A DNA stretch of 64,000 bases from Notolepis coatsorum (taxonomy: Eukaryota > Chordata > Actinopteri > Aulopiformes > Paralepididae): contig OZ020587.1 of assembly GCA_963971535.1 (NCBI GenBank), positions 159,539,856 through 159,603,855 of the forward strand, in the 5' to 3' direction. Both the position numbers and the translations under genes were made by a program. The notes beneath the pieces are model-generated. The model did no database searches. It had not been told where the DNA came from and worked only from the letters and a program-made list of their open reading frames with translations. This document shows, one piece after another, positions 13,490 through 37,074 of the stretch. How positions within the stretch are numbered: the first letter of the stretch is position 1; every line of letters starts with the position of its first letter.

Positions 13490-13662
13490 AGGAAGAGTGT
13501 TTGGTGACCAGGCCCGCTGTCTTGTAGGCTGCGCCTCCATAGGGGCGGGACCCGGCAGGTGTGGGTGTATTTGTTTTTTATTCGTGGATGGAGGTACAAT
13601 AGGTACATGAGATGAGGTATCTCGATAGGCTTAAGAACGGGACGCGATAAGCCAAGTACGAT
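13490..13662 (-). repeat. DIRS inverted terminal repeat, left end in element orientation, split by the Polinton
   Basis: Matches 8445-8584 in inverted orientation. It ends GCCAAGTACGAT at 13662, where the Polinton starts. The last 12 bp of the repeat reappear at 28801-28812. Confidence 0.85.
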
Positions 13663-13951
13663 AGAGAGAGATTAAAGATGCACATTCTGTCAAACCTTAT
13701 AAGGAAAGTTTGATTGATTGTAGCGACGCCCCTTTTAGTTTGATTGAAGCTGCATACGGCACTTTTGAGCCCTCTGATTGGTCGAGGATTCAAGGAGGCG
13801 GGACATCCGGTTTCGAAGGGAGGGACATCCGGTTTAGGAGGGGAGGGACATCTGGTTACGGAAGGGGAGGGGTTATAAGGGCGGGTACTTCTGTTTTCAG
13901 ATTTTTTTTCAAAATAAAAGTTTTTCAGAAATAAACGTTTTTTTTTTTATT

Positions 13952-14065
13952 TTCAGATTGTATTTGTGTATTCCAAGGTTTTCACAATATGTATTTGTGT
14001 ATTCCAAGGTTTTCACAATATGTATTTGTGTATTCCAAGGTTTTCAGATTAAACATTTAAGAATA
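13952..14065. repeat. Three-copy 31-bp tandem repeat in the left arm
   Basis: Units beginning TATTTGTGTATTCCAAGGTT at 13961, 13992 and 14023. The right arm has a single copy at the matching place (about 28505-28530), so this is a local expansion after the arms separated. Confidence 0.93.
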
Positions 14066-14083
14066 TGTATTTGTGTATCTTAA

Positions 14084-15021
14084 CACTTTAATCGCCGGAA
14101 ACGCCGAAACTCGTCATTGCCCGCCATGCTCATTCTGCCGAAGACGGCGTAACACGTCTTTGATATCAATATTTCAAAAATCTGTGATCGAAATCATATT
14201 TCTCCTCCGGGGACCTGAGATATACTGATGAGCTCCACTCAACTCTCTAACGGTTCAAGAGCGCCATCTGGTGGCCGATCGGCAGATCGCCCAACAGGAA
14301 GTCATGTGGATGAAGTGGTGCTCATCCATATTTCGTCCGGGCACTCGCTATCATTAGCAGGACTCCATCTTGACACAGTGAACACCGATCGGTGCAAATA
14401 ACTCGACAAACAACATGATTTGGACGTATATACTATTATACAACCTGGAGATGGATCGGGTATTTCGACATCCCATAATAGGAATATCTCTGCTCCACGC
14501 TCATCGCCCAACGGCGCGAGGAAGATACGGTAAGATCCAGCGTTATTTTCCAACGTGTTCTTTACTAACTGCTCTGATGATCATATCACCCACACTAGAT
14601 GAATGATATAACGTTTTATAAACGACCCCCCGCCCATCCGGTCAACATCAGATGATACGTAGTAACTTCTAGAACCACGTCCAGTTGAAATTTTTTATCT
14701 CGCGCCGATTGCTATCAAACTGTATTTCATCATCAATATAATGCATTTGGAGCTATAAATCACGTTCTGGAGAAAGCTGCAGAAAACGATAAAAACATAC
14801 TTATATTTTAGACCATATTTTAGTATGAATATGTGAATGAAAAAGTATAACGTTGCTACACCCTGAACAATAGATATAGGACATTGAATGGGCCATAATA
14901 ATGTCAATTTAGCAATACAATTTAAAAAGTTATAGCCCTGCAAAGAAGGGGAACTTCTCCATAGACAAATAGAGATGGCGAGGGGTGGTAAATTATGAAT
15001 TTAACCATGGCGATCAAAGTG
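14084..15021. mobile_element. piggyBac-like non-autonomous element
   Basis: Flanked by TTAA (14080-14083 and 15022-15025). It has terminal inverted repeats CACTTTAATCGCC at the left and the complement of CACTTTGATCGCC at the right. The insertion is absent from the corresponding place in the right arm, giving a natural empty-site control (...TATCTTAAGAATATAG... near 28455). No transposase is visible in 938 bp. Confidence 0.87.
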
Positions 15022-15742
15022 TTAAGAATATAGTTTCACAATAAGTATTCCAAAAGTCTTAAGAATAAGTGTGTGTGTGTTTTCTTGGATAAATGCAAGA
15101 GAGTGTTTAGACACTTGTGTGGAGGAATTAAGAAAATACAATGTATCTGTTTAAGTAGAGAATGTTTTCTTACAAGTGATATGGTTTGAGCAGAAAGCAT
15201 TCTCCCCTCTGTTTCTGTCTACCTCTCAGTAGACTGAATATCTCCCCCTCTCTGTCAATCTGGTGTGTGTGTGTGTGTGTGTGTAGAAAATGTGTGTGTG
15301 TGTGTGTTCGCTCAAGCGACTGAAATGTCAAACTGTTGGTTCTATGCGATTCTGCAAAACACACGATTCTGCAAGGGGTGTCTAAAGATGGAGTTGGGTA
15401 CCAAGTAGGGGGGCATGAAGATAGCGAATGGGATGGCTTGAAAGTACTGGATTCAGCTTCTGTCACGGGGAACCCGATTTATGACAGGGTATGAGTTCTC
15501 CATTCAGCAGGAAAAAAAACGCAAGGTCCCCCCAAAAAGAAAAGGTGTGACTGTGTGTGTCTGTGTCTGTTTGGCTCAATGGTGATTAGAGCTGTGAAAA
15601 AGGTCTAATTCAAATGTTTTTTTTCAGAAACGGCACATTACTATCAGTGTTGGTACGTGCAGTTTGGGGATAAGCAGAGGTGTCAAAAGGAGGGTGCCTT
15701 CACAACTTAATACCACTGTGAAAAAAAAATAAAAGAGGAACT
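15022..15742 (+). other. Left-arm non-coding region before the first gene
   Basis: Contains (GT)n runs near 15263-15310 and a region rich in pyrimidines. It matches 27741-28450 inverted. No ORF is shared by both arms here, so it is probably promoter or terminal regulatory sequence. Confidence 0.55.
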
Positions 15743-15960
15743 ATGTCCTCACAGGCAGAGGTTACAATGGCTTTAGAAACCCCTACTATTATAGATTTCT
15801 CAGAGGATGATCAAAACAGTATTATTTCGATGTAGAGCTTTAATAGGCTACTAATAAGGGCTAGCATTGGTGGTATGTGTATAGGAGGCGTTATGGGGTA
15901 TGTTTTTGTCTTTGGAAGGTGTGCGATATTATCCATGATATAAATGGGGGCGTTGTATAG
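15743..15960 (+). pseudogene. Polinton ORF A, small membrane protein, left copy (broken)
   Basis: Counterpart of the intact 72-codon gene at 27522-27740. A TAG codon (about 15833) replaces the right-arm glutamate codon, and a G-run near 15893-15897 is one base shorter, shifting the frame before the end. The encoded protein is not one I recognise; see the right copy. Confidence 0.65.
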
Positions 15961-16017
15961 AAGAAGAAAAAAGCTATATATATGTTTCTGATTGTGACTG
16001 ATAGATCCAAGAGCATA

Positions 16018-16668
16018 ATGGCTGACAATATTTGTACACCGGTTATACACACAGCTGACAGACTTGCGCGTATTAGGGCACTCTTGAGGGCACCGTGCAG
16101 ATATGGACGGGGCATTTATAATGAAGTATGGCCTACATCCGATGGAATATTGAGTCTGGAATATGATGGCCGATTAGACAGAGTGGTGATATACAAACTG
16201 GGTCTAACTGACTTCGAAGGCATTGGAGAGAGGCCAGAGCTCTATTTAAGCGAAAGAGAGTTCTGGCAGATAAAAAAGAATTATTTTGACGTGCTAGACG
16301 GTTTGGCCGTCAGAAAGCTCAAGGAGGGACAGATAGTCAAGCTGTTAACAGGCTCCAGTGACTTAGAAAGTTATTTTGTATATTACACAGCACGCGTCTC
16401 TATACATAACAAGCCCGGCGTTAGTGGGGTGGGGGATATGACCATTTTCAAGAGGTATGCATTTGGGGCCGAGAGTGTTCTATTTACTGTTCCGGTGAAC
16501 ACGTGGTTAGAATGTCTTCACACATGTGGAGCTGTCACGAGCGAGATGTTAAAGGTGCAAGCAGATATGGATCATTTGAAAAGACGTCTCTTTCCATACA
16601 ACGAATCAGAGGGAGACGATACCAAAGGTCCTGGCGAGGGTGTGAAGGAAGGGGCGTGTCAACCATAA
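16018..16668 (+). CDS. Polinton ORF B, 216 aa, unknown function (left copy, intact)
   Basis: Starts at the ATG giving MADNICTPVIHTADR, chosen because the right-arm copy also opens there. Open to a stop at 16668. It is a soluble-looking protein with alternating beta-like segments (GILSLEYDGRLDRVVIYKLG, ESYFVYYTARVSI) and a charged, Gly-rich C-terminus. I see no signal peptide or membrane segment. It lies between ORF A and ORF C/D, all reading toward the element centre. I do not recognise the family, though its conservation in both arms with few amino-acid changes indicates a real gene. The right copy has a one-base deletion. Confidence 0.75.
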   Translation: MADNICTPVIHTADRLARIRALLRAPCRYGRGIYNEVWPTSDGILSLEYDGRLDRVVIYKLGLTDFEGIGERPELYLSEREFWQIKKNYFDVLDGLAVRKLKEGQIVKLLTGSSDLESYFVYYTARVSIHNKPGVSGVGDMTIFKRYAFGAESVLFTVPVNTWLECLHTCGAVTSEMLKVQADMDHLKRRLFPYNESEGDDTKGPGEGVKEGACQP

Positions 16669-16715
16669 AAGACCCTTTAAAAAAAAAAAATTACAACTGA
16701 CTTTAAAGACTGATC

Positions 16716-17444
16716 ATGGCATACTTCTACAATGGATACGAGCTCTACACTGGATACGAACTGGAGTCTGCTGAATCCGACTCACCGCTACTCTGCATTC
16801 CTCTAACGATGAATACCTGCGAAACACCTGATCTGTCATCACAAGACACCGTAGCCGATGGAGCGGCTGGGGACACACAGCCTAATGGCCAATGGCGGTC
16901 CCACACCCCCGAATCTGGTTTTCCGCAAGACATGCCTGTCACAGAGAGGAGATGACTTACAATACTCCCCGTTGTGGTTGACGAGAGAGTGGGATTCCTA
17001 GATCATTTAATGATTGCCAGCATTAAACTACTTCTGGCCGAAGTGTTGAAGTGCTGTGTCGATCAACATCTCATCGAACAGTGTTAGGGTTGTACCATTC
17101 AGCACCCGAGTCAGCGTCATCATGAATGCTTGTTTGAACCCGCCTTGTATTACATGGTCAACGAAGCGGCACTACTGACTATGTTATGGAGTGGTGAACT
17201 GATTCCTACCATTAGCGCCCTCCTGGGCCGGCTCTGTTTAGCCATTCCATCCCCACTAAGAATGCAAGGAATCTGCGAGGGGCTTCTCTACGAGTTTCAG
17301 TCATTTAAGAATAGCGAATGTCTGAAGGATTTGATTAAGGAAATACACATTGATTACCCTGAGATTGATACTGAGGCAGTCTATGATTCAATACTTCTCT
17401 TCATGTCCACTGTGCCAAAACTGGCAAAAGTCTATAGAGTGTGA
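16716..17444 (+). pseudogene. Polinton ORF C/D, left copy, two in-frame stops
   Basis: One reading frame runs from ATG at 16716 (MAYFYNGYELYTGYELE) to a stop at 17444, interrupted by TGA at 16953 and TAG at 17085. The TGA is private to this arm: the right arm has CGA. The TAG occurs in both arms. After the TAG the frame stays open with no good ATG until about 17151, so C and D may once have been a single protein of about 242 residues. The second half is Leu-rich and helical (LLTMLWSGELIPTISALLGR, KDLIKEIHIDYPEIDTEAVY). No family was recognised. Confidence 0.6.
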
Positions 17445-17553
17445 TTTGTTTATTTCTGAAAAAATAAAATGGTGTGTTTTAAAAAAAAGAAATGTCTCTT
17501 GCCTAGTTATTCACTAATGTATTATAATCCCAGGGGTGAGGTGGTTTGAAAAT

Positions 17554-18633
17554 ATGGATGGCATACTAGCTAAAATATATTATGACCCTGCAAATCCAGG
17601 TTCGTTTGGGGGTGTCGAACGCTTGCGTAAGGCAGTGGAACTCTCTACAGGAGATAAAGTAGGAATAAATGTTATTAAAACCTGGTTATCAAAACAGGAT
17701 AGCTACACTCTACATAAGCCTGCTAGAATACATTTTAAGAGAAATAGAGTATTCGTACCATGGCCTCTTTATCAATTTCAAATTGATTTATGCGATATGC
17801 AAAGCTTAGCACAATACAACGATGGTTTTAAATATCTGATGACTGTAATTGATGTATTCTCTAAGATGGTTTATGTAAGGCCTTTAAAAAATAAGACAGG
17901 TTTAGCTGTTACAAAAGCCTTCAAAAGAGTTCTAGAGGAGAGTCAAACGCCAGTAAAAATACAAACGGACGAAGGTAAAGAATTCTATAATAAACATTTC
18001 AAAGAATTGATGCATCGACATAACATACACCACTTCGCAACTGGAAGTGAATTGAAAGCGAGCGTTATCGAACAATTGAACCGTACATTGAAGGACAGGA
18101 TGTGGAGATTTTTCACAGCTAAAAATACTTTTCGTTATATTGATATGCTGCCGGATATGGTACAGAGTTATAATAACACGTTTCACTCCAGTATTAAAAT
18201 GAAGCCTACAGAGGTCTCTAAAGATAACATACTACAGGTATTTCAGAACCTGTACGGAACAGTACCTCTAACGCATAAAAAAAATAGATTTAAATTTGAT
18301 ATAGGCACTACTGTGCGTATATCTCAATATAAGTCTGCCTTCGACAAGCGCTATGAGCAGACGTATACGTACGAGACATTTATTATAGAGAAGCGTTTAG
18401 CCCGTCTCCCTGTTGTGTATGTCTTAAAAGATCAGGATGGTGAAAGGGTAAAAGGAGTTTTTTACGAATTGGAGCTGCAAAAGATTGTGGAAGGTACGAA
18501 TAAAACATACAAGATAGAGAAATGTATTGAGAATAAAAGGATAAACGGCAAGATGTATACGCTAGTAAAATGGATAGGATGGCCTGCGAAATTTAATTCT
18601 TACATCTTAAAGAGTACTCTCAGAGCTGTATGA
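17554..18633 (+). CDS. Polinton integrase (retroviral-type), left copy, open
   Basis: DDE integrase that would insert the element and make the 6-bp target duplication. The ATG at 17554 gives MDGILAKIYYDPANPGSFGG, the usual Polinton integrase opening. The frame is open 18 bases upstream to a TTATAATCCCAG that could be a splice acceptor. The core shows the first Asp in FQIDLCDM, the second in IQTDEGKEF and the Glu in VIEQLNRTLKDRM. The C-terminus has a chromodomain-like KMYTLVKWIGWPAKFNSYI. About 359 residues, near the usual Polinton length, with all catalytic residues present. It follows ORF D and precedes the penton stub. The right copy is broken. Confidence 0.93.
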   Translation: MDGILAKIYYDPANPGSFGGVERLRKAVELSTGDKVGINVIKTWLSKQDSYTLHKPARIHFKRNRVFVPWPLYQFQIDLCDMQSLAQYNDGFKYLMTVIDVFSKMVYVRPLKNKTGLAVTKAFKRVLEESQTPVKIQTDEGKEFYNKHFKELMHRHNIHHFATGSELKASVIEQLNRTLKDRMWRFFTAKNTFRYIDMLPDMVQSYNNTFHSSIKMKPTEVSKDNILQVFQNLYGTVPLTHKKNRFKFDIGTTVRISQYKSAFDKRYEQTYTYETFIIEKRLARLPVVYVLKDQDGERVKGVFYELELQKIVEGTNKTYKIEKCIENKRINGKMYTLVKWIGWPAKFNSYILKSTLRAV

Positions 18634-18698
18634 ATAAGGTCCTTATATAATCCTATACTTTTTTAAGGAAGGTAATCATAATTCAGCATATTAACACG

Positions 18699-18785
18699 AT
18701 GGAGGGGTTCTACGTTACGCTCCCTTCCAACGCGTGCATGTCTGTGTTCCCCAATAATAAGGCTTCTAGTTTCAATATTAATCTG
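18699..18785 (+). pseudogene. Penton-like gene stub at the left-arm deletion junction
   Basis: The first 29 codons match the start of the right-arm gene at 23502 (MEGFYVTLPSNACMSVFPNN), then sequence jumps at about 18785 to the 3' end of the capsid gene. This marks the breakpoint of the structural-gene deletion in the left arm. Confidence 0.85.
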
Positions 18786-18805
18786 AACAGACGTTATGTT
18801 CATCC

Positions 18806-19312
18806 TTGTTGGGGTCTCGTTTTCAAGGTGTATGGGCCTGTGATGAGTTAAAAAGCAATTTACAGAATACACTGATTAGACCCATCTATTTTATTGTTAA
18901 TACAGATCCTAGCAATAAACCCGGGGTGCACTGGCTCGCTGTGAGTCTTGATAACGAACGAGAGGGTGTCTTTTTTTATTCCTTCGGGCTTAGTCCAAAT
19001 TCTAAAGCATATCCTTCACACATCAGAGAATTTCTAGAACAAAATGTTACAGAATCCTATTATTATTCAACTCGTAGAGTGCAGAATGAACTCTCAGCCT
19101 ATTGTGGACATCATTGTGTATATTTTCTATGTCAACGAGCAAGAGGATACAGTCTGAACGATATCATATTTAAACATTATACAGGAGATACTTTGAGAAA
19201 TGACCTCCTAGTCAGTAAATTTGTCTTAAAATATAAGAAATGTATATTAAAATGCAGAGGTATCCATAGACAAGCGTGCTGTAGTTTAAGAATGTTAAAT
19301 GAACGTATGTAA
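18806..19312 (+). CDS. Adenain-like cysteine protease, left copy
   Basis: Maturation protease of the adenovirus/Polinton type. The catalytic His lies in GVHWLAVSLDN and the Cys in AYCGHHCVYFLCQRARG, with an intervening Gln in RRVQNE. The frame has no ATG near its expected start: it opens in the tail of the capsid-gene remnant, and the first codons here are TTG. After the motif HYTGDTLRN the two arms diverge; this copy continues for about 42 residues (DLLVSKFVLKYKKC...) while the right copy ends within a few codons. It is the innermost gene of the left arm and faces the other protease copy across the centre. Confidence 0.82.
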   Translation: MLGSRFQGVWACDELKSNLQNTLIRPIYFIVNTDPSNKPGVHWLAVSLDNEREGVFFYSFGLSPNSKAYPSHIREFLEQNVTESYYYSTRRVQNELSAYCGHHCVYFLCQRARGYSLNDIIFKHYTGDTLRNDLLVSKFVLKYKKCILKCRGIHRQACCSLRMLNERM

Positions 19313-19478
19313 CAAATATAATAAAACACACATTCTGAAAGTATTTCATTATTGTTGTAGTTTAAGAATGTTAAATGAATGTATGTAACAAATATAATAA
19401 AACACACATGTTGAAAGTATTTCTTTGTTGTTGTTTTTTATTTAATTTTTTAAATACAAAACATTAATGCATTTCTCA
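19203..19478. repeat. Centre of the Polinton palindrome with 76-bp tandem repeat
   Basis: Non-palindromic spacer between the arms. It contains two adjacent copies (about 19278-19353 and 19354-19429) sharing GTTTAAGAATGTTAAATGAA and ATAATAAAACACACAT. The AATAAA motifs could terminate the plus-strand transcripts. It is AT-rich, with T-runs at 19434-19456. Confidence 0.82.
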
Positions 19479-19866
19479 AAGTGTCCCCTGTATAATGTTT
19501 AAATATGATATCGTTCAGACTGTATCCTCTTGCTCGTTGACATAGAAAATATACACAATGATGTCCACAATAGGCTGAGAGTTCATTCTGCACTCTACGA
19601 GTTGAATAATAATAGGATTCTGTAACATTTTGTTCTAGAAATTCTCTGATGTGTGAAGGATATGCTTTAGAATTTGGACTAAGCCCGAAGGAATAAAAAA
19701 AGACACCCTCTCGTTCGTTATCAAGACTCACAGTGAGCCAATGCACCCCGGGTTTATTGCTAGGATCTGTATTAACAATAAAATAGATGGGTCTAATCAG
19801 TGTATTCTGTAAATAGCTTTTTAACTCATCACAGGCCCATACACCTTGAAAACGAGACCCCAACAA
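19450..19866 (-). CDS. Adenain-like cysteine protease, right copy
   Basis: Nearly identical to the left copy over residues 1-132, with the same active-site His (GVHWLTVSLDN) and Cys (CGHHCVYFLCQ). It ends LRNALMFCI, much shorter at the C-terminus than the left copy. As in the left arm, no in-frame ATG is obvious and its 5' end overlaps the last codons of the capsid gene in a different frame, so its start is uncertain. Few substitutions separate the two copies. Confidence 0.82.
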   Translation of the reverse strand: MLGSRFQGVWACDELKSYLQNTLIRPIYFIVNTDPSNKPGVHWLTVSLDNEREGVFFYSFGLSPNSKAYPSHIREFLEQNVTESYYYSTRRVQNELSAYCGHHCVYFLCQRARGYSLNDIIFKHYTGDTLRNALMFCI

Positions 19867-21801
19867 GGATGAACATAACGTTTGTATTCGAGAATTGAGT
19901 CAAAACAAGCATATACAATCAGAGTCGCAGTGGTGTGTAGAGGCTCTTGAAATCTCATCTCCAGAAGTAGATTCCCTGTAGCAGCGGGGGATGAGGCCAA
20001 CCCGTCCTCATCAGGGTCGAGATTAAAATAATATAAGCCATATCCTTCTAGAAAATCCTTTCGATCAAAAATCAGAGCAGAATCCTTCAGATGACGGCCT
20101 GTGGCTGTAAATAAACTGTAGTATTCCCTCACCGCGTTTCCTTGTGCAAACTGTGGCTGATAAGCTTTTGATGAGATCTGACGACCGTCCTGACTTAAGG
20201 CTGCATATTCTAAATCAAAATGTTGAAAATTAAATGGATTTCTATTGGGGGTACCATTATAAGCCTCGTGTTCAACTAAACCGAGTATAACGTATTTCGG
20301 TAGCAAGCCCAGAAAGATGTTTTCGTGGGTCGAAACCCTCGAGTTAATAGGGATAGAGAATGTTTTTACATTAATACGTGCTAATGGATATAGTGCATTT
20401 CCCCTTTGTAACGCCGTTGCGTGGCCTAACTGTACAGCAGGGGATACGACAACCTTTTTTTACGAATAAGGTCGCATTAATAATATGTAGTCTGAACCCG
20501 CCATCGATCGCAGACATTATACAGAAATCGTCTTTAGCTCTAGTTAGTTTTATTTTTAAATCAACTTTATTTAATAATAGACGATCGCTAGAAAATATAT
20601 CTGAATGGATTCCACCCAGTAGATGAAACTCTCGCGATAGAGTGCATTCCAGCCCCCTGGTTTTTAAGCCTTTATTTCTCCCGTCGACTCCTAGACGGAC
20701 ATCTTCCATGGCCCCGCCTGTATCTTTAGCGAATAAACCAGCGGTAAATTGACTATTCAAACTATCGGGAGAATAATTCAGTAATGTTTCAATCATAGCT
20801 CTATAAGGATGTGTAGAACTAGACTGACTGATTAAACGATCCTGGACTGTAACATCTACTTGGCTAAAGATTGTGTTTAATGGATAATTAATTATAGAGA
20901 CATCCGCATTGGCTGCCAAATTAGATCGCCATTGGTGATCTTCGCCTTTAAATATAGTAATGTATTATTGAGATCCAAGTACCGCTCTCCTTGACCTGGT
21001 ATATTAAATTCTATAGGGCAGTGGTTCTCAAACTGTGGTACGCGTACCACTAGTGGTACTTGGTGGTACTGCTGGTGGTACTTGAAAACATTTCCAAAAA
21101 AGCTAAAAAAAAGATTTATTTTCTTTTTTTTTACAGTCAGGCCACTGAACTTAGAAGCAGGCCAGGCCAGTGTTTCTGGTTGCGGCAGCACGATAGTTAG
21201 ATAATCTAAGTGGGGAACAACCAGAAGATCACTGTGACAGAGAGTAATGCAGTCTAAACAGTCATAAATCTTTAATTCAACTTCAGCCCTGATCATAACC
21301 ATTTATTTTTAGATTTCTTGTAATGTCAGATAAAAAATGAAATACTCCCACTTTTCTGAAAATAGTTGGTGTTAAATCTGACATTACAAAAAATCCATCA
21401 AAATATGTGTTGCTGCTAATCATTGACACATGCCTAGCCTGTAATAATCCCCCCCAGAAAAATTTACTTTGCATTTGATATATTGTAAATATTTTACTTT
21501 TTGTCTTTTTTTTAACAATAATTTGTGATGCCATCACACAAACTGGCATTTAAAGGGTAAACATTCAAAAATGTATTGAATATGTGTTTTCTTTTATTTT
21601 TTACAATAATTTGTGATGCCCATCACAAACACTGGCATTTAAAGGGTAAAAATTCAAAAATTCCTGCACCAGGATGCAGGAAATTAAGTTTTTGTAACAA
21701 AATAATTGTGTGTCTGTGTGTGTGTGTGTGTGTGTGTGAGTGTGAGAGAGAATGACGGACAATTGCTTGCTGTGTGAGAGAGGGAGAGAGAGAGGGAGAG
21801 A

Positions 21802-21853
<52 letters not shown>

Positions 21854-22326
21854 TAGATAGAGAGAGAATTAAGTACATTTGCTGAAATACAGTTGTTCTT
21901 CATTTTCTCACTTGCTATGTGAGAATGTTAGTTATTATGTTCTCAATGCCCCTTGCATTGTATGAGTTGTGTGGAAGCGTTTGCTAGTTCTAGTACTATC
22001 CCTTTGTACATTGTGGCTGTGTCTGACAAAAGTTAACAATAAATAATGGTATTAGGAATACATTTGCCTCCTGCGTGAACTGTGCATAGCTGAATAGACG
22101 GTATTTTAACGCCGGTCATATGGTGGTACTTGGAGAGCCAGCTACGTTCTCAGGTGGTACTTGGTGTAAAAAGTTTGAGAACCACTGCTATAGGGGAATC
22201 TCTAGTTAGAGCTGTTATGGGGGATATTTCAATATAATCACTTTGCTCGATCGATAATTGTGTATAAGGGGCCGTGAATATATCCAACTCCGATCTAGAG
22301 CACTCTTGGGAGCGTTGATGGATCAT
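19821..22326 (-). pseudogene. Polinton major capsid protein, broken
   Basis: Resembles the double jelly-roll major capsid proteins of Polintons, often annotated in animal genomes as F54H12.2-like. Landmarks in order are the ATG at 22326, EFNIPGQGERYLDLNNTLLY (about 21000-20945), INYPLNTIFSQVDVTVQ (about 20890-20840), and near the end EYYSLFTATGRHLKDSALIF (about 20130-20070). The coding sequence is interrupted by a hAT element (21019-22187). Reading frame also changes near 20925 and near 20390-20400, so at least three lesions inactivate it. The left arm keeps only its last codons, so the element has a single, dead capsid gene. Confidence 0.85.
21019..22187. mobile_element. hAT-type non-autonomous element in the capsid gene
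   Basis: Terminal inverted repeats CAGTGGTTCTCAAACT and its complement, with a perfect 8-bp duplication CTATAGGG (21011-21018 and 22188-22195). Inside are (GT)n and (GA)n runs around 21710-21865 and repeated GGTGGTACTTG motifs near both ends. It has no transposase coding. It is absent from the left arm, where the region is deleted. Confidence 0.95.
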
Positions 22327-22333
22327 GTTTCAC

Positions 22334-22762
22334 TTAAAATATATCCTTTACACGTTTCTTCGTCGGTCGTCTTCTCTGACTAAGACCTCTTCTTTTAACC
22401 TGCTTCTTCTTATAAGATCTCTTATTCTTTATAGCTGTCACTCTACACCCAGGAGGTATCCTTCTTTTCGATGACCTCTGAGCATAGCCGGCACCTCTCT
22501 GCTCACCCATCCTAGTGGTGACCTTCTGGATGACGTCGTCTAAAACCTCTTTGCCTATATTTTTTGCCGCGGTCTTGATGTGTGGTTTAGCTATGTTAAT
22601 ACCTGTTTTAAGAAAAGGCATAACAAATTTGAATAATCTTGAGAAGATAGAACCTATCCCACGACCGTATTGCACCGGTGCCCCTGCAAATCCAGCTAAG
22701 CCGTGTCCCACCTGATTTACATAATAATTAACGAAACGGTTAGGATGGATGTGTGGGTCCAT
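22334..22762 (-). CDS. Basic minor virion protein (adenovirus pVI/pX-like position and composition)
   Basis: 142 residues. Residues about 30-80 form a Gly/hydrophobic amphipathic stretch (GLAGFAGAPVQYGRGIGSIF, RLFKFVMPFLKTGINIAK). The C-terminal half is very basic (SSKRRIPPGCR, KNKRSYKKKQVKRRGLSQRR), ending KKRVKDIF. Polintons and adintoviruses carry small basic or amphipathic virion proteins compared with adenovirus core and membrane-lytic proteins. Position between penton and capsid genes, with only 7 bp to the capsid ATG, supports that role. I infer function from composition and neighbours, not from a specific motif. The frame is intact and exists only in the right arm. Confidence 0.7.
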   Translation of the reverse strand: MDPHIHPNRFVNYYVNQVGHGLAGFAGAPVQYGRGIGSIFSRLFKFVMPFLKTGINIAKPHIKTAAKNIGKEVLDDVIQKVTTRMGEQRGAGYAQRSSKRRIPPGCRVTAIKNKRSYKKKQVKRRGLSQRRRPTKKRVKDIF

Positions 22763-22779
22763 AATATCTTTTTTTTTTA

Positions 22780-23502
22780 TTACACGTTTATGTCCAAGGG
22801 CTTAAAATGTAATTTTACTATCACTTTCCCGTAGGTATAATTGACTAACTGGTCTGTGTCTGTCTTGATTTCTATTTGAATAGTATTTATATCGGTTTTT
22901 GATACCCTAGAATAATGCACACGATCATAACGTATGTTTATCAAATCTCCATATGTTCCCTTGATTTGTACCGTAGATAATAGAGGAACGTATGAATCCC
23001 CTACGAGTTGATAGTCTGACAGATTAGAATATATGAATAGATTATATACACCAGAACCCAGATCCCATTTATCGGATTTCAATCCTATATCATAAGATAG
23101 CCTTGGAGAGAATCTCACCTCGTACACTCCATTCCCCGTAAACTCACATCTATTAGTAATCTCGTTATAAAGGAGCCCCGCCTTTTTATCACCTGTCGTG
23201 CGTAAACTATCTGTGATTAGTTTTATTAATTGTTTAGTATTTTTATAGTAACCCCCTGAGCCTATCCTTATTGTTTCAACCAACATGTCGGGATGATGTT
23301 TTAGATGTCTGCATTCAAAATATGCGGACTCGGGGGGCAAATTATACCATGTATGAGGGTATGTTATCTCTGCCAGACCAACTAACCAATCACCTTTTAA
23401 TTGGAGGGGCTTAGCCAGATTAATATTGAAACTAGAAGCCTTATTATTGGGGAACACAGACATGCACGCGTTGGAAGGGAGCGTAACGTAGAACCCCTCC
23501 AT
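22780..23502 (-). CDS. Penton-like minor capsid protein
   Basis: 240 residues beginning MEGFYVTLPSNACMSVFPNN, intact in this arm only. The N-terminal block, with FNINLAKPLQLKGDWLVGLA and ITYPHTWYNLP, matches the pattern of the Polinton minor capsid (penton, single jelly-roll) protein that occupies capsid vertices. The rest is beta-rich with no membrane segment. It is followed at 17 bp by the basic minor virion gene and then the capsid gene, a typical structural cluster. The first 29 codons recur as a stub in the left arm at 18699. Confidence 0.83.
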   Translation of the reverse strand: MEGFYVTLPSNACMSVFPNNKASSFNINLAKPLQLKGDWLVGLAEITYPHTWYNLPPESAYFECRHLKHHPDMLVETIRIGSGGYYKNTKQLIKLITDSLRTTGDKKAGLLYNEITNRCEFTGNGVYEVRFSPRLSYDIGLKSDKWDLGSGVYNLFIYSNLSDYQLVGDSYVPLLSTVQIKGTYGDLINIRYDRVHYSRVSKTDINTIQIEIKTDTDQLVNYTYGKVIVKLHFKPLDINV

Positions 23503-23567
23503 CGTGTTAATATGCTGAATTATGATTACCGTCCTTAAAAAAGTATAGGATTATATAAGGACCTTAT

Positions 23568-25933
23568 TCATACAGCTCTGAGAGTACTCTTTAAGATGTA
23601 AGAATAAAATTTCGCAGGCCATCCTATCCATTTTACCAGCGTATACATCTTGCCGTTTATCCTTTTATTCTCAATACATTTCTCTATCTTGTATGTTTTA
23701 TTCGTACCTTCCACAATCTTTTGCAGCTCCAATTCGTAAAAAACTCCTTTTACCCTTTCACCATCCTGATCTTTTAAGACATACACAACAGGGAGACAGG
23801 CTAAACGCTTCTCTATAATAAACGTCTCGTACGTATACATCTGCTCATAGCGCTTGTCGAAGGCAGACTTATATTGAGATATACGCACAGTAGTGCCTAT
23901 ATCAAATTTAAATCTATTTTTTTTTATGCGTTAGAGGTACTGTTCCGTACAGGTTCTGAAATACCTGTAGTATGTTATCTTTAGAGACCTCTGTAGGCTT
24001 CATTTTAATACTGGAGTGAAACGTGTTATTATAACTCTGTACCATATCCGGCAGCATATCAATATAACGAAAAGTATTTTTAGCTGTGAAAAATCTCCAC
24101 ATCCTGTCCTTCAATGTACGGTTCAATCGTTCGATAACGCTTGCTTTCAATTCACTTCCAGTTGCGAAGTGGTGTATGTTATGTCGATGCATCAATTCTT
24201 TGAAATGTTTATTATAGACTTCTTTACCTTCGTCCGTTTGTATTTTTACTGCCATTTGACTCTCCTCTAGAACTCTTTCGAAGGCTTTTGTAACAGCTAA
24301 ACCTGTCTTATTTTTTAAAGGCCTTACATAAACCATCTTAAAGAATACATCAATTACAGTCATCAGATATTTAAAACCATCGTTGTATTGTGCTAAGCTT
24401 TGCATATCACATAAATCAATTTGAAATTGATAAAGAGGCCGTGGTACGAATACTCTATTTCTCTTCAAATGTATTCTAGCAGGCTTATGTAGAGTGTAGC
24501 TATCCTGTTTTGATAACCAGGTTTTAATATCATTTATTCCTACTTTATCTCCTGTAGACAGTGATGCCAGTAACGCGTTACTAAGTAACGCGTTATTGTA
24601 ATCTGATTACTTTTCCCCGAAAATAGTAATCTAACGCGTTAATCTTTAAAAGCCAGTAATCTGATTGCAGTTACTTGTCCAAGTGGCTGTGCGTTACTAT
24701 TTCGTTACTATCTCATCATAAATTCATAATGCAGGCGGAATGCAGTATTTTATTTCGTTTTCGACAGTCAAAAATACATTTTGAGCTGTTTTTCTTATTT
24801 GGGAGTGACGTCGTGTGGCAGTGAAAGGGTTACACAAGAATGTGTCCCGCGGCGTGACTGGACCCTCTGTCTGTGAGTGACTCTGCTTTGGTCCAATCAC
24901 ATTCCCCATCCACAGTCTGCGAATCAGAGGCAGAGTAGGGCGGGTCTTCACAGCACGTCATGTGACATATGCGCCAATCGTGTGACAACAGGGCTCCGTC
25001 GTTACAGCCTCGTTTGCACGGAGAATTCCACCCCAAAACGCTTGTCTAAACGCAAAATTACGGGGTTTCTGTTCAGACTTCCATCCCAAAACGCTCGTCT
25101 AAACGTAGCCTCAGTCACTACTTCACGTTTGTGTCAGCTAAGCCGAGTGAAAAAAACATTCATATGCGGAGGAAACAAAATACTGTCTACCGCTAAAAAC
25201 AGCACATCCAATTGCATTGAAAGCATCTGGAATCACAACACTAGCCGACGCTTCGACTAGGTACAGGAGGACTCAGAGGTCCACCAGCCAAGCAGAAAAA
25301 GAGAGAGATTGTTTCTTTCCCTTTTGATTAATGTATATTTGATGGTGGCAGAGCAAAAGCTCTTATTTGCCAGATTTACAGTTAATTTACATGTTAAAGA
25401 GAGACTGATTGTATGTTTATAAAGAGACATTTATAAAAACAATTTAATAGTTACAGTTGATATAATTGAATAGTTCAGCCTGCATTTGTTAGATGTGATA
25501 CACTGGTTTTGTAAAACCACTGGCTGGCTGCTCTAATGCTGTGAGCATCATAGACTGTTGCTTTACCATACTTGATGGTACAGAAGCTGAAGCACTAGTT
25601 TAACAATTTACGTTATGTGCAGAGAAACAAGTTAAAAACAATTTATGCACTTTCAATAAAGCGTTTAAAAAAAACTGTTGGGGGAACGACGATGACTTCG
25701 TAACCTAGTTACTTTCAAAGTAACTAAGTTACTCTGATAATCAAGTAATCAGTAAAGTAACTTAGATTACTTTTTAAAGGAGTAATCAGTAATCAGTAAT
25801 CAGATTACTTTTACAAGTAATCTGTGGCATCACTGCCTGTAGAGAGTTCCACTGCCTTACGCAAGCGTTCGACACCCCCAAACGAACCTGGATTTGCAGG
25901 GTCATAATATATTTTAGCTAGTATGCCATCCAT
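23568..25933 (-). pseudogene. Polinton integrase, right copy, disrupted
   Basis: Counterpart of 17554-18633. A hAT element (24559-25835) interrupts it near codon 35-40. Further on, an A-run in the coding strand is one base longer than in the left arm (nine versus eight, near 23926-23934), shifting the frame between the catalytic core and the chromodomain-like tail. DDE residues remain readable in the fragment 24468-23914 (IDLCDM, IQTDEGKEV, VIERLNRTLKDRM). Several replacement substitutions separate it from the left copy. Confidence 0.92.
24559..25835. mobile_element. hAT-type non-autonomous element in the integrase gene
   Basis: Ends CAGTGATGCCAGTAACGCG and GTGGCATCACTG are inverted, with a perfect 8-bp duplication CCTGTAGA (24551-24558 and 25836-25843). 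Subterminal regions hold many GTAAC/GTAATC motifs in both orientations, typical of transposase-binding arrays in hAT elements. No transposase is encoded in 1277 bp. The left arm retains the empty site at about 17650. Confidence 0.95.
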
Positions 25934-26041
25934 ATTTTCAAACCACCTCACCCCTGGGATTATAATACATGAGTGAATAACTAGGCAAGAGACATTTCTT
26001 TTTTTAAAACACACCATTTAATTTTTTCAGAAATAAACAAA

Positions 26042-26770
26042 TCACACTCTATAGACTTTTGCCAGTTTTGGCACAGTGGACATGAAGAGAAGTATTGAAT
26101 CATAGACTGCCTCAGTATCAATCTCAGGGTAATCAATGTGTATTTCCTTAATCAAATCCTTCAGACATTCGCTATTCTTAAATGACTGAAACTCGTAGAG
26201 AAGCCCCTCGCAGATTCCTTGCATTCTTAGTGGGGATGGAATGGCTAAACAGAGCCGGCCCAGGAGGGCGCTAATGGTAGGAATCAGTTCACCACTCCAT
26301 AACATAGTCAGTAGTGCCGCTTCGTTGACCATGTAATACAAGGCGGGTTCAAACAAGCATTCATGATGACGCTGACTCGGGTGCTGAATGGTACAACCCT
26401 AACACTGTTCGATGAGATGTTGATCGACACAGCACTTCAACACTTCGGCCAGAAGTAGTTTAATGCTGGCAATCATTAAATGATCTAGGAATCCCGCTCT
26501 CTCGTCAACCACAACGGGGAGTATTGTAAGTCGTCTCCTCTCTGTGACAGGCATGTCTTGCGGAAAACCAGATTCGGGGGTGTGGGACCGCCATTGGCCA
26601 TTAGGCTGTGTGTCCCCAGCCGCTCCATCGGCTACGGTGTCTTGTGATGACAGATCAGGTGTTTCGCAGGTATTCATCGTTAGAGGAATGCAGAGTAGCG
26701 GTGAGTCGGATTCAGCAGACTCCAGTTCGTATCCAGTGTAGAACTCGTATCCATTGTAGAAGGATGCCAT
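26042..26770 (-). pseudogene. Polinton ORF C/D, right copy, one shared in-frame stop
   Basis: Starts MASFYNGYEFYTGYELE at 26770. The first part stays open to TAG at 26399-26401 (after HLIEQC). The same frame continues open to a stop at 26042 with FEPALYYMVNEAALLTMLW and the helical second half. It lacks the private TGA of the left arm. The amber codon is common to both arms, so it predates the duplication or is a real gene boundary. If it is a boundary, the downstream gene lacks a good ATG before about 26335. No family was recognised. Confidence 0.6.
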
Positions 26771-26818
26771 GATCAGTCTTTAAAGTCAGTTGTAATTTTT
26801 TTTTTTTTAAAGGGTCTT

Positions 26819-27468
26819 TTATGGTTGACACGCCCCTTCCTTCACACCCTCGCCAGGACCTTTGGTATCGTCTCCCTCTGATTCGTTGTATGGAAAGAGA
26901 CGTCTTTTCAAATGATCCATATCTGCTTGCACCTTTAACATCTCGCTTGTGACAGCTCCACATGTGTGAAGACATTCTAAACACGTGTTCACCGGAACAG
27001 TAAATAGAACACTCTCGGCCCCAAATGCATACCTCTTGAAAATGGTCATATCCCCCACCCCACTAACGCCGGGCTTGTTATGTATAGAGATACGTGCTGT
27101 GTAATATACAAAATAACTTTCTAAGTCACTGGAGCCTGTTAACAGCTTGACTATCTGTCCCTCCTTGAGCTTTCTGACGGCCAAACCGTCTAGCGCGTCA
27201 AAAGAATTCTTTTTTATCTGCCAGAACTCTCTTTCGCTTAAATAGAGCTCTGGCCTCTCTCCAATGCCTTCGAAGTCAGTTAGACCCAGTTTGTATATCA
27301 CCACTCTGTCTAATCGGCCATCATATTCCAGACTCAATATTCCATCGGATGTAGGCCATACTTCATTATAAATGCCCCGTCCATATCTGCACGTGCCCTC
27401 AAGAGTGCCCTAATACGCGCAAGTCTGTCAGCTGTGTGTATAACCGGTGTACAAATATTGTCAGCCAT
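26819..27468 (-). pseudogene. Polinton ORF B, right copy, frameshifted
   Basis: The same gene as 16018-16668, with the ATG at 27468. It lacks one C in the GCACCGTGCAG segment of the left arm (about 27391), which breaks the frame about 25 codons in. The rest is open and differs by a handful of substitutions (for example SFDALDG versus YFDVLDG). Confidence 0.75.
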
Positions 27469-27521
27469 TATGCTCTTGGATCTATCAGTCACAATCAGAA
27501 ACATATATATAGCTTTTTTTT

Positions 27522-27740
27522 CTATACAACGCCCCCATTTATATCATGGATAATATCGCACACCTTCCAAAGACAAAAACATACCCCCATAACGCCTCCT
27601 ATACACATACCACCAATGCTAGCCCTTATTAGTAGCCTATTAAAGCTCTCCATCGAAATAATACTGTTTTGATCATCCTCTGAGAAATCTATAATAGTAG
27701 GGGTTTCTAAAGCCATTGTAACCTCTGCCTGTGAGGACAT
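27522..27740 (-). CDS. Polinton ORF A, 72-aa predicted single-pass membrane protein (right copy, intact)
   Basis: The ATG at 27740 (MSSQAEVTMALETPTIIDFS) is preferred over an upstream in-frame start because the left arm also aligns from there. An acidic N-terminal half (SEDDQNS) is followed by the hydrophobic stretch GGMCIGGVMGVCFCLWKV, long enough to span a membrane, then a short tail. It is the outermost gene in the arm, reading inward toward ORF B. The family is not recognised. The left copy carries a stop and a frameshift. Confidence 0.6.
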   Translation of the reverse strand: MSSQAEVTMALETPTIIDFSEDDQNSIISMESFNRLLIRASIGGMCIGGVMGVCFCLWKVCDIIHDINGGVV

Positions 27741-28190
27741 AGTTCCTCTTTTATTTTTTTTCCACCGTGATATTAAATTGTGAAGGCACCCTCCTTTTGA
27801 CACCTCTGCTTATCCCCAAACTGCACGTACCAACACTGATAGTAATGTGCCGTTTCTGAAAAAAAACATTTGAATTAGACCTTTTTCACAGCTCTAATCA
27901 CCATTGAGCCAAACAGACACACACACACGTTCACACCTTTTTTTTGGGGGGGACCTTGCGTTTTTTTCTCTGCTGAATGGAGAACTCATACCCTGTCATA
28001 AATCGGGTTCCCCGTGACAGAAGCTGAATCCAGTACTTTCAAGCTCACCCATTCGCTATCGTCATGCCCCCCTACTTGGTACCCACCTCCATCTTTAGAC
28101 ACCCCTTGCAGAATCGTGTGTTTTGCAGATTCGCATAGAACCAACAGTTTGACATTTCAGTCGCTTGAGCGAACACACACACACACATTT

Positions 28191-28221
<31 letters not shown>

Positions 28222-28800
28222 CAGATTGACAGAGAGGGGGAGATATTCAGTCTACTGAGAGGTAGACAGAAACAGAGGGGAGAATGCTTTCTGCTCAAAC
28301 CATATCACTTGGAAGAAAACATTCTCTACTTAAACAGATACATTGTATTTTCTTAATTCCTCCACACAAGTGTCTAAACACTCTCTTGCATTTATCTAAG
28401 AAAACACACACACACACACTTATTCTTAAGACTTTTGGAATACTTATTGTGAAACTATATTCTTAAGATACACAAATACATATTCTTAAATGTTTAATCT
28501 GAAAACCTTGGAATACACAAATACAATCTGAAAATTCAAAAAAAATCTTTTATTTCTGAAAAACTTTTATTTTGAAAAAAATTCTGAAAACGGAAGTACC
28601 CGCCCTTATAACCCCTCCCCCTTCCGTAACCAGATGTCCCTCCCCTCCTAAACCGGATGTCCCGCCTCCTTGAATCCTCGGCCAATCAGAGGGCTCAAAA
28701 GTGCCTTATGCAGCTTCAATCAAACTAAAAGGGGCGTGGTTACAATCCATCAAACTTTCCTTATAAGGTTTGACATAATGTGTATCTTTAATCTCTCTCT
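27741..28800 (-). other. Right-arm terminal non-coding region
   Basis: Inverted counterpart of 13663-15742 minus the piggyBac insertion and the 31-bp expansion. Contains (AC)n runs near 28173-28220 and 28405-28420. I see no open frame conserved in both arms. The last about 200 bp (CTTATAACCCCTCCC, CCAATCAGAGGG) are closely matched at 13690-13880 and include a CCAAT-like motif. Confidence 0.6.
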
Positions 28801-28812
28801 TACGATATATAA

Positions 28813-32242: not shown

Positions 32243-32663
32243 TGTTACGTTCTGGACACCGACTGAGGTCGGTGACCACCCACATTCCTGGCATATGTCA
32301 TTGGGCTTGTCACCTGTCCTTTCCCTGTCAATTAGTACTGTCACTTAGGGGTGGTTCCTGATTGGCTGTCACAGGGGTGTGTGTGGAATGTTGGTATTTG
32401 GTGTCTATGTAACCTACCTGTCTTCTGCTTGTTCATTGTCAGGTCTTCACTAATTGCGTTCGGGGAAAACGCGGACGGTTCAACTCTGGACCTCCAATAA
32501 ACTCCTATTTACCTTATTTCCTGCCTGTGCTATTTAGCATTTATCTCTCTTAGAAATTACTCTTGTGTTCTTACTATTAAAGTCGAACCTGTTCAAGAGT
32601 AAACACTCTCCGTCTTTGTGATTGCCTTCACCCATTGGAACTCACCTACCTCCATTCCTGACA
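32243..32663 (+). repeat. 5' LTR of the gypsy element
   Basis: 421 bp. Contains the polyadenylation signal AATAAA at about 32487 and GTCAGGTCTTC at 32438-32448, complementary to the primer site just after the LTR. Confidence 0.96.
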
Positions 32664-32674
32664 GAAGACCTGAC
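32664..32674 (+). promoter_or_regulatory. Primer-binding site, probable self-priming type
   Basis: GAAGACCTGAC directly follows the LTR and is a perfect 11-nt reverse complement of GTCAGGTCTTC inside the LTR (32438-32448). It does not start with the TGG expected for tRNA priming. Tf1 and Sushi-type chromoviruses prime from the 5' end of their own RNA with such an 11-nt match. Confidence 0.8.
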
Positions 32675-32686
32675 CATCAGAGTTCC

Positions 32687-33060
32687 ATGGAGGCAATCAT
32701 GGAGATGCTCCAGGCGCAGAGGGCGGCCCAGGAGCGGATGGAAGAACATCAACAGCTGGTCAGCGCCGAGTTAGTCCGACTCAACGGGATCGTCGGCTCA
32801 TCCCAAGCGGTGGCGCAGTCGGCGTTGGCCACAGCCCGACAAGCCCAAGAAGGAGTGGCTGGAGTTCAGTCGGCGACGGGAGAAGCAGTGGTCCACGCAG
32901 AGGAGAGTCGGGGGGTGTTCGGGGTCCAGGAACGGTCCCGCGAGCCACGACTGCAGGCGCCCGCTCGCTATGATGGATCACCGGATGGATGTCGGGAATT
33001 CATCACCCAGTGTCTACTCGTTTTCCGGCTGCAACCACGATCATTTCCATCGGAGATAGC
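32687..33060 (+). pseudogene. gag N-terminal part of the gypsy element
   Basis: The ATG at 32687 gives MEAIMEMLQAQRAAQERME, followed by a coiled-coil-like segment and PARYDGSPDGCREFITQC, the start of the chromovirus capsid region. The frame is lost at about 33058-33062; the remaining gag continues in the frame of the long ORF that starts at 33138. A short out-of-frame deletion at this point would explain it. Without it, gag and pol would form one protein. Confidence 0.8.
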
Positions 33061-33137
33061 AAGCTCTCTCCTGGGCTACGGCGGAATTAGAGGCGGGATC
33101 GATAATCTGCGACAGTCTGGACGCCTTTACCCGGGAG

Positions 33138-36100
33138 TTGAGAAGAGTATTCGATACTTCCCGGGTACTCTCGATCTTCGAGGCTGGCGGTCGTCTTCTC
33201 GACTGCCGGCAGGGCCTCCGCACGGTCGCAGCTTACGCTATCAATTTTCGGATCTTGGCTCGGGAGACAGCTTGGTCGGAGAACGTCTGCGTGGTTCTGT
33301 TCGTCAGGGGACTCTCAGCGCGGATGCGAGATGCGCTCTCCGCGCGTGAGATCCCCGAGCAGCTGGAAGTGCTGATCAACACCGCCATCAAGATGGACAA
33401 TCGGCACCAGGAGAGGGAGAAGGAGCGTGTCAACAACACCCAGGTATGTTTTCCTTCTTCTCCTGGTGTTGATACATCCATGCATTATACGAGTGGGCCA
33501 CTGGGTGATGAATCCATGCAGCTTGGAGCGCTGTCGCTCTCGGATGACGAGAGGCAGCGCTTCATCAAAGAGCGACGCTGTTTCCGGTGCGGTCGCACCG
33601 GTCACCGCTTCGGCAGCTGTCGGGTCCAGGCTGTATCAGCTCGGCGCCAGTCGGGAATAGAAGGTGCGCCGTCAGGCTTCGAGAAAGCGCGAGCAGGTGG
33701 GCTCATTCCTGCCAAGCCCACTGATTCACGTACATTTTTTGAGGTGGCGATTAACTGTGGGGGTGACATTAGGGGAACTAAGGCTCTCATTGACTCAGGG
33801 GCGGCGGGCAATTTTATTCACGTGGGATTGGTGAAGGAGTGGGGAACCCCAGTGGAGGATTTAGGGGTTCCCTTACCGGTTTACGCCCTGGACGGTCGGC
33901 CCCTGGGCAGTGGGAGCGTCACCCAGCGCACGGTTCCATTACACATCCGGGTGGCGGGTGGGGAGTGGGAATGGATTAAATTTTTTGTCATCTTTTCCCC
34001 CTATTCTGTCATGGTGTTGGGTCATCCCTGGTTGTCTTCACGTGTTCATATTATTAATTGGAGCACGGGCGAACTCTCAACGGCGGCCGACGTCAAGTCG
34101 ATCGTCAGCGGGAGTTTGCCCAAACCCTTGTCTTCCCCCCCCTCTTCCCTTTTGTCTCCTCCCTCTTTCTCCAGGATAGTGGGGAGCGTGGCAGATTCTG
34201 ATCTACCCTCTAATCCCGATTTGATAGGGGTGCCTGAGATCTATTGGGACCTGGCGGACGTTTTTAGCAAAACGCGTGCTAAAGCACTTCCGCCTCATAG
34301 ATCATACGACTGTCCCATTAATCTTCTACCCGGTACCTCCCCGCCTTGCGGGCGAATGTTCTCTCTCTCACGCCCCGAAACCTTGGCCATGAACACCTAC
34401 ATAGAGGAGGCATTGCTTGCGGGGCACATACGCCCGTCCACTTCCCCTGCCGGCGCTGGCTTCTTCTTTGTTGATAAGAAAGATGGGGATCAGCGCCCGT
34501 GCATTGATTATAGGGGATTGAATGACGTTTCCATCAAGAACCGATATCCTTTACCTCTCATGGACACGGCCTTTGAGTGCTTACAGGGGGCACAGGTCTT
34601 TTCTAAACTTGACTTACGTAATGCATACAATCTGGTCAGGATTAGAGAAGGAGACGAGTGGAAGACTGCATTTAACACACCCAATGGGCACTATGAGTAT
34701 TTGGTCATGCCCTTTGGTTTGGCTAATGCTCCGGCAGTCTTCCAAGCCCTAGTTAACGACGTGCTGCGAGACTTGATTGGGGTGTCGGTGTTTGTTTACT
34801 TAGATGATATTCAGATTTTTTCTCGCGATATGGTGCAACACCAACTGCACGTTCGGGAGGTGCTAGACCGTCTCCTCAAGCATCAACTATTCGTTAAGGC
34901 TGAGAAGTGTGTGTTTCACACTGACACCGTGTCCTTCCTGGGCTTTGTGTTGACAAAGGGCGATCTGCGCATGGATCCAGCCATGGTGAGTGCAGTTTTG
35001 GACTGGCCACGGCCTTCGTCGCTCAAGGGGTTACAACGGTTTTTGGGCTTTGCAAATTTTTACAGGCGCTTTATTCGCAACTTTAGCGCCTTAGCCAATC
35101 CATTAACAGCTCTCACTAAGTCCTCTCTCCCTGGCTTTGAATGGTCGCCTAGGGCAGAGTCGGCCTTCTGCGATCTTAAACGTCGATTTACATCCGCTCC
35201 TGTATTGATCCGCCATGACGCAGAGGTTCCGTTCATTGTGGAGGTGGATGCCTCTGACATCGCGGTGGGGGGGGTGCTCTCTCAGAGATGCTTAAAGGAT
35301 GGGAAAGTGCACCCGTGTGCTTTTTTCTCTCGCCGTCTGTCACCAGCCGAGCGTAATTACGACGTGGGTAATCGGGAGTTATTGGCGATCAAATTGGCAC
35401 TGGAGGAGTGGAGACATTGGTTAGAGGGGGCGACACATCCTTTCATTGTTTGGACTGATCATAAGAACTTGGCTTACATCCAAGGGGCTAAACGCCTTAA
35501 CGCTCGCCAGGCCAGGTGGACGTTGTTCTTCACACAATTTCGATTTACCATCTCCTATAGACCCGGCTCCAAGAATATCAAACCTGACGCTTTGTCGCGC
35601 CAGTTTGATCTTCCTGGTCGGGAGGAGCAGCCCCATCCCATTATTCCACCGGCCTTGATTTTGGCACCCGTGTCTTGGGGCATAGAGAGGGTGGTAAGGT
35701 CGGCGCTAACGCAGGAGCCCGATCCGGGTGGGGGTCCTCCGGGACGGTCGTATGTTCCCAAGGCGGCGCGCTCACGCTTGCTACAGTGGGCACATGCGTC
35801 ATCCCTCACCAGCCACCCAGGGGCAACCAGGACCCTGGAATTTATCCGTAGGAGGTTCTGGTGGCCGACAGTGGAGGGGGATACGCGTTCCTTTGTGGCG
35901 GCTTGTCCGGTGTGCGCACGTAGTAAGACCTCTCGACGGGCACCGGCGGGTCTCCTCCGACCACTTCCTATTCCTAAACGACCCTGGTCACACATATCTC
36001 TGGACTTTATTTCTGGTCTTCCCCTTTCGGACGGGTTCACCACCATTTTGGTGGTGGTGGATCGGTTCTCTAAGGCGGCTCACTTTGTCCCTCTCCCCAA

Positions 36101-37043: not shown

Positions 37044-37074
37044 ACGTCTGGTGCCGTTCGTCGGGGGAGGGTAC

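Follow-up and report, generated by a model that had tools for sequence, protein, structure and literature searches.

RESULTS

A Maverick/Polinton derivative with long inverted arms

The window, meaning the whole 64-kb stretch of DNA that was analyzed (contig C8 of a 3.42-Gb assembly), contains at positions 13663-28800 a derivative of a Maverick/Polinton element. Its bounds and genes, together with one neighboring element, are as follows.

13657..13662, no strand: left copy of the target site duplication TACGAT, directly outside the left end
13663..15557, + strand: left terminal inverted repeat, with a TTAA-type insertion in it; inner end placed by comparison with one C21 copy, in which the repeat stops at the matching base
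15982..16668, + strand: accessory ORF B, left arm, open; right-arm counterpart split over two frames
16716..17444, + strand: accessory ORF C, left arm, with stops at 17085 and 16953
17554..18633, + strand: integrase, left arm, open frame (Pfam rve, 2.5e-12)
18782..19312, + strand: protease (adenain family), left arm (Peptidase_C5, 2.2e-6); the frame runs beyond the palindromic part into the center
19450..19899, - strand: protease, right arm; C terminus altered at the palindrome joint, start lost in a 60-bp deletion
19821..21302, - strand: major capsid protein gene, broken into frames, right arm only
22334..22762, - strand: small basic protein (PW by position), right arm only; open in copy C1
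22780..23502, - strand: minor capsid protein (penton), open, right arm only; 37% to the penton of a Pimephales minnow adintovirus
23568..26017, - strand: right-arm integrase, interrupted by a hAT-type insertion and by a frameshift
27926..28800, - strand: right terminal inverted repeat, inner end approximate
28801..28806, no strand: right copy of TACGAT, directly outside the right end
32243-37495: Gypsy-type LTR retrotransposon that has a chromodomain; its LTRs are 99.3% alike, and a long frame is open at 33138-37043

As the initial annotation had claimed, a single 6-bp duplication bounds the whole element, and both ends, which adjoin the TACGAT copies, read AGAGAGAG and carry the motif (AG)3 // (CT)3. 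According to the available text of PMC8097293, vertebrate Mavericks have a 6-bp target site duplication and this conserved end motif; the element resembles these adintovirus-like elements in its duplication, AG-repeat ends, integrase, and adenain protease. Among 10 further end pairs that were compared, including that of the C44 copy described below, 5 likewise had a perfect 6-bp duplication.

Self-comparison of the locus gave 14 inverted blocks between 13663-19202 and 19470-28800, spanning the whole length of the element and colinear except for overlaps in a tandem repeat close to the ends. By BLAST piece, identity between the arms was 88.9% in the outermost ~320 bp, 95.9% in a 74-bp piece, and 98.0 to 98.6% inside, which bears out the claim that the left arm is an inverted, about 98% similar copy of the integrase-side half. 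Counting substitutions alone, the arms differed at 13/337 sites within the outer 421 bp, at 10/532 within the inner terminal repeat, and at 40/3636 elsewhere. The arms now measure 5.5 kb (left) and 9.3 kb (right); when later insertions are subtracted and the left capsid block is counted back in, each comes by arithmetic to ~6.9-7.0 kb, and the palindrome once to ~14 kb. Terminal repeats of other copies in the assembly measured ~0.37-1.5 kb, and those of intact vertebrate Mavericks are given as 46-1,447 bp in the part of PMC8097293 available. Arms of ~7 kb set the element apart from that published range, and even the present 5.5 kb far exceeds it, as had been proposed.

Integrase, protease, and accessory ORFs occur in both arms, the integrase being open on the left and broken on the right. 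Named teleost and adintovirus integrases were among the first matches of the left-arm integrase, at 54-59%, and the closest named integrases and capsid proteins were from teleosts, which points to a fish as the probable host; the viral contigs searched held no close relative and one remote match. The major capsid protein was assigned through the matching ORF of copy C30, which matches teleost F54H12.2-like proteins, a name that we take to mark Maverick major capsid proteins. The gene set by which a Maverick is recognized (rve integrase, adenain protease, and major and minor capsid proteins) was thus found, the major capsid protein by way of that other copy's ORF. The capsid genes also lie in the order published for vertebrate Mavericks, as far as the available part of PMC8097293 describes it. 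The stop at 17085 in ORF C is common to both arms and absent from 8/8 other sequences read there (two of them the C44 arms), and the second stop, at 16953, occurs in the left arm only.

The palindrome joint and the missing polymerase half

The two features at the middle of the palindrome are the following.

19203..19469, + strand: palindrome center (loop), with a 76-bp tandem duplication; in other copies, too, it lies downstream of the protease
19470..19480, no strand: palindrome joint CATTTC(T/A)CAAA, with 6 bp exact and 10/11 common to the parent and the folded strand

The loop of 267 bp separates the two CATTTC microhomology strands. The left protease and the center match seven other copies up to 19480, and the element departs from them at CATTTC: past 19480 all seven read CATTTCACAAAC, followed by a sequence common to them, whereas the element has CATTTCTCAAAGTG there, which complements its own protease on the other side of the 267-bp loop. 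Because the seven copies follow the left protease and center as far as 19480, these represent the parental state, with the right arm as the inverted copy. The whole palindrome joint was fully matched at this locus only, among 40 of 144 candidates scored, and with a protease-center probe the window was the sole paired place (1/40 places scored). The search proposed by the initial annotation, for further copies with the same palindromic center, recovered the center in seven copies and the full joint in none of the other places scored. As to the non-palindromic, polymerase-bearing form that it also sought, the seven copies continue past the center, and the three of them that were scanned by frame (C24, C1, and C23) all have polymerase B beyond the joint point.

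One of these three copies also has an ATPase-like frame beyond the joint, a weak match below curated cut-offs. The polymerase and ATPase-like frames of other copies had no match in the 64-kb window. When twenty 1.5-kb DNA pieces of the polymerase half, from four copies, were compared, three matched the window and none of these in a polymerase or ATPase frame; the matches comprised ~1 kb and 45 bases outside the element and 36 bases inside the insertion at 21019-22187. The element differs from vertebrate Mavericks in being without a polymerase B or ATPase match, and judged from these sequences it is a defective Maverick/Polinton derivative, not an autonomous member.

Deletions and insertions that break the symmetry

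The center shows additional repair, and three insertions further distinguish the arms.

14084..15021, no strand: piggyBac-like insertion flanked by TTAA copies, left arm only
18783..18787, + strand: joint of a 3.6-kb deletion, minor-capsid start fused to the protease, left arm
19886..19886, - strand: joint of a 60-bp deletion, between the major capsid end and the protease start, right arm
21019..22187, no strand: hAT-type insertion with the 8-bp duplication CTATAGGG, right arm only
24559..25835, no strand: hAT-type insertion with the 8-bp duplication CCTGTAGA, right arm only

The insertion at 21019-22187 was missing in the 6 compared other copies that span that place. These three later insertions account for the differences in arm length other than the capsid loss. 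The left arm lacks 19886-23415, and the joint of this deletion was fully matched at this locus only, among 40 of 223 candidates scored. The 60 bp absent from the right arm are kept in 8/8 other copies covering that stretch, and the corresponding joint also was fully matched here only, among 40 of 120 candidates. The capsid cluster does occur once at present, as the initial annotation stated, but we infer that this is secondary: the fusion of the minor-capsid start to the protease points to a capsid block that originally lay in the left arm too and was lost by deletion. The inner edges of the two deletions agree within 1-2 bp, which could have arisen if a fold-back copy ran off the end of a fragment, or if an extruded hairpin was cut symmetrically.

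Divergence of the arms and of the ends

The arms were mutually closest, differing by 1.1% versus 1.5-1.7% to the closest copy found (C9, over 3204 sites). The nearest of the first seven copies, at comparable length, was 2.9% from the arms, versus 40/3636 between the arms, and two further copies that cover just ~600 sites of that region were 1.4-2.2% away. At 126 sites that are polymorphic among copies, the arms differed at 2. When derived changes were polarized against C9, 6 were common to both arms, 6 ambiguous, 20 private to the left arm, 14 private to the right arm, and 21 private to C9. Only 6 to 12 of the 40 to 46 changes on the arms' branch were common to both, and these few common changes beside many private ones place the duplication early on that branch. 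One of the six common changes is a stop. The private coding changes (left, 11 nonsynonymous, 3 synonymous, and 1 stop; right, 8 nonsynonymous and 3 synonymous) look neutral, given a neutral expectation of ~24% synonymous. A synonymous bias of the changes common to both arms (11 synonymous, 5 nonsynonymous, and 1 stop under a lenient amino acid rule) was weakened by the addition of C9: before the C9 split there were 7 synonymous and 9 nonsynonymous changes, and after it 2 synonymous, 1 nonsynonymous, 1 stop, and 2 noncoding. We therefore place no weight on this bias.

The inner terminal repeat did not differ significantly in divergence from the arms (10/532 versus 40/3636, p=0.13), and the whole terminal repeat was more diverged than the arms (23/869 versus 40/3636, p=0.001). 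The outermost 421 bp of the element's ends differed by 3.9%, which is at least the end-to-end difference of other copies (2.5% pooled). Outer divergence was likewise above inner divergence in each of the six other copies with an aligned inner repeat, and the seven copies pooled, taken regardless of polymerase content, gave 70/2808 for the outer and 30/3060 for the inner repeat. The 3.9% was dropped as proof of later gene conversion, since the seven other copies show the same excess; the pattern is no proof of a later origin, yet it fits two freshly identical ends less well. At the element's differing end sites, alleles known from other copies were present in 8/12 columns (5/7 within the first 158 bp), which is not unusual given 24/44 in seven control pairs. 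Assigning the right end to the integrase-side or polymerase-side type gave no result, as another copy's two ends mostly carry the identical base at the differing sites.

Across the seven other copies, the outer ~420 bp is ~2.5 times more different between ends than the inner repeat, for which end exchange before insertion and local mutation are candidate causes. Repeat length also differs between copies, the polymerase-side repeat of C24 copies reaching ~190 bp further inward than that of C21.

A second palindrome

Two probes, one for the integrase (40 of 169 candidates scored) and one derived from C44 (40 of 173 scored), together gave 45 distinct places; integrases on both strands within 20 kb were found at two of them, the window and a locus on C44.

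C44:61106230-61119950, both strands: second palindromic integrase-end Maverick, from the integrase pair and arm comparison

Outside the repeat, the two C44 arms share 98.1-98.3% identity across ~3 kb. The next place matched by a 901-base C44 probe reached 92%, among places scored, and one C21 copy is 94-95% like C44 over a 0.65-kb piece. Arm pieces from C44 differed from the element's left arm at 281/3169 sites, and the element's arms are closer to the C9 and C30 copies than to C44; for these reasons the two palindromes are taken as apparently independent. At its center, C44 now has a hAT-type insertion and, after it, a joint at ATCTAG; this center differs from the one in the window and is best read as later loss of the original center. 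The right arm of C44 is without ~660 bp near its end, where a sequence known from other loci sits, and the left end is short by 9 bp. With its center gone and 9 bp lost, C44 provides no second preserved joint, and no target site duplication backs unit insertion there.

DISCUSSION

Origin of the palindrome

We favor, with modest confidence, the view that the palindrome is a fold-back product of replication that was integrated as a unit. A linear Maverick genome would be under copying by its protein-primed polymerase, and a growing or displaced strand, extending from the integrase end across the protease gene, would halt just past CATTTC, fold back at the matching hexamer 267 nt upstream, and copy itself until it reached the integrase end again. 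Once the hairpin was completed, the product would be a ~14-kb linear palindrome that carries the integrase-side repeat at each end and lacks polymerase and ATPase genes; an integrase, its own or a helper's, would insert it and duplicate 6 bp of the target. Then or afterwards, break repair close to the center would take 60 bp out of one arm and 3.6 kb out of the other, and the transposons would land last. The arms, the joint with its microhomology and its full match here only among the places scored, the missing half, the target site duplication, the early duplication, and the second palindrome are observed; we infer the polymerase, the hairpin intermediate, the dependence on a helper, and the order of folding and insertion.

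Direct support for the snap-back or strand-switch origin that had been suggested initially comes from the 6-bp microhomology joint and the 267-bp loop, both set by other copies. The estimated size of ~14 kb also is compatible with the 12.7-24.6 kb given for published intact vertebrate Mavericks in the available part of PMC8097293. Four observations count against this view: the outermost 421 bp differ by 3.9%, while a fresh copy of one end should begin identical, so that the right end may have been exchanged or may be the former polymerase-side end; divergence is higher in the terminal repeat as a whole than in the arms (p=0.001); a stop is among the six changes common to both arms; and a simple fold-back does not predict that the two deletions have an edge in common. 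At C44, where the original center is lost and 9 bp are missing at the left end, unit insertion has no support from a target site duplication.

Formation in the chromosome soon after an ordinary insertion is the main rival, unlikely but deserving real weight. A break past CATTTC would let the left fragment fold back and copy outward through the integrase half until it was resolved within the right end's terminal repeat of ~1 kb, so that the polymerase half was replaced and the old target site duplication kept. The element's outer ends, as different as both ends of other copies, would suit this route, but the outer excess is found in those copies as well (70/2808 versus 30/3060). The higher divergence of the whole repeat compared with the arms (23/869 versus 40/3636, p=0.001) also suits it, whereas the inner repeat alone is no different (p=0.13), and the alleles of other copies at some differing end sites (8/12) are no more frequent than in controls (24/44). 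The ORF C stop common to both arms fits decay that preceded the duplication, yet with just 6 to 12 of 40 to 46 branch changes common there was little time in place, and the route would be needed twice, halting at the terminal repeat each time. The claim that the palindrome integrated as a unit thus stands as the best reading, given the early duplication, but the duplication TACGAT does not by itself establish it, as formation in place soon after insertion would give the same one.

It is improbable that several fragments were joined, namely a 1.1-kb protease-center-protease palindrome from a broken fragment, with ACAAACG at both ends, end-joined to two integrase-end fragments of two genomes. 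The coincidence of the deletions' inner edges within 1-2 bp would follow from a fold-back copy running off a fragment end, and each deletion joint was fully matched here only, among 40 places scored per search; however, the same edge would result if a complete palindrome extruded a hairpin that was cut symmetrically at its base, and arms from two genomes are hard to reconcile with arms that are mutually closest (1.1% versus 1.5-1.7%) and differ at 2 of 126 polymorphic sites. A nested or adjacent double insertion, in which each element would have two ends and a target site duplication of its own, does not fit, as the locus has a single pair of ends and a single duplication, and the palindrome joint is located within the element at a microhomology. 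Folded reads can produce palindromes, but we give an assembly or sequencing artifact practically no weight, since the 40/3636 arm differences (~1%) and the unlike later transposon insertions argue strongly against it, as do the unlike deletions, the distinct outer flanks, the matching target site duplication, and the second palindrome on C44.

Relation to known palindromic genomes

To our knowledge, replication of vertebrate Mavericks has been inferred and never observed. Adenoviruses, which are protein-primed linear DNA viruses related to Mavericks, are not known to integrate, and their palindromic defective genomes are inverted duplications of one end, a structure that they share with the element. 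In snap-back genomes of AAV, one end is duplicated head to head around a loop, in symmetric and asymmetric forms, and the 3' snap-backs carry the capsid region, as far as the available text of PMC8235507 describes them. The element is like these in that one genome end is inverted-duplicated around a short loop and the other end is missing; it differs in that it sits integrated in a host chromosome, whereas AAV snap-backs are packaged subgenomes of a parvovirus. As with the AAV forms and the palindromic defective adenoviruses, the simplest reading is a microhomology-primed fold-back of a replicating strand, followed by integration.

No palindromic Polinton/Maverick was described in the literature searched (titles and abstract beginnings). 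Whether palindromic, polymerase-less integrase-end genomes form a recurrent class of defective Mavericks, made by fold-back in the course of protein-primed replication and integrating with help, we judge to be evenly balanced. If they do, ordinary assemblies preserve snap-back genomes of a virus-like lineage, and the number of palindromes records its replication errors. Particles of this lineage had not been observed according to the part of PMC8097293 available. The integrated microhomology fold-back joint and the second palindrome would document, as a fossil trace, that linear genomes were copied by strand displacement. They would offer a signature countable in any assembly and would suggest that a polymerase-less element may still be mobilized.

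A minor observation concerns the minor capsid gene, in which 36 bp found in other copies are missing at 23065; the left arm of C44 stops within the same short stretch.
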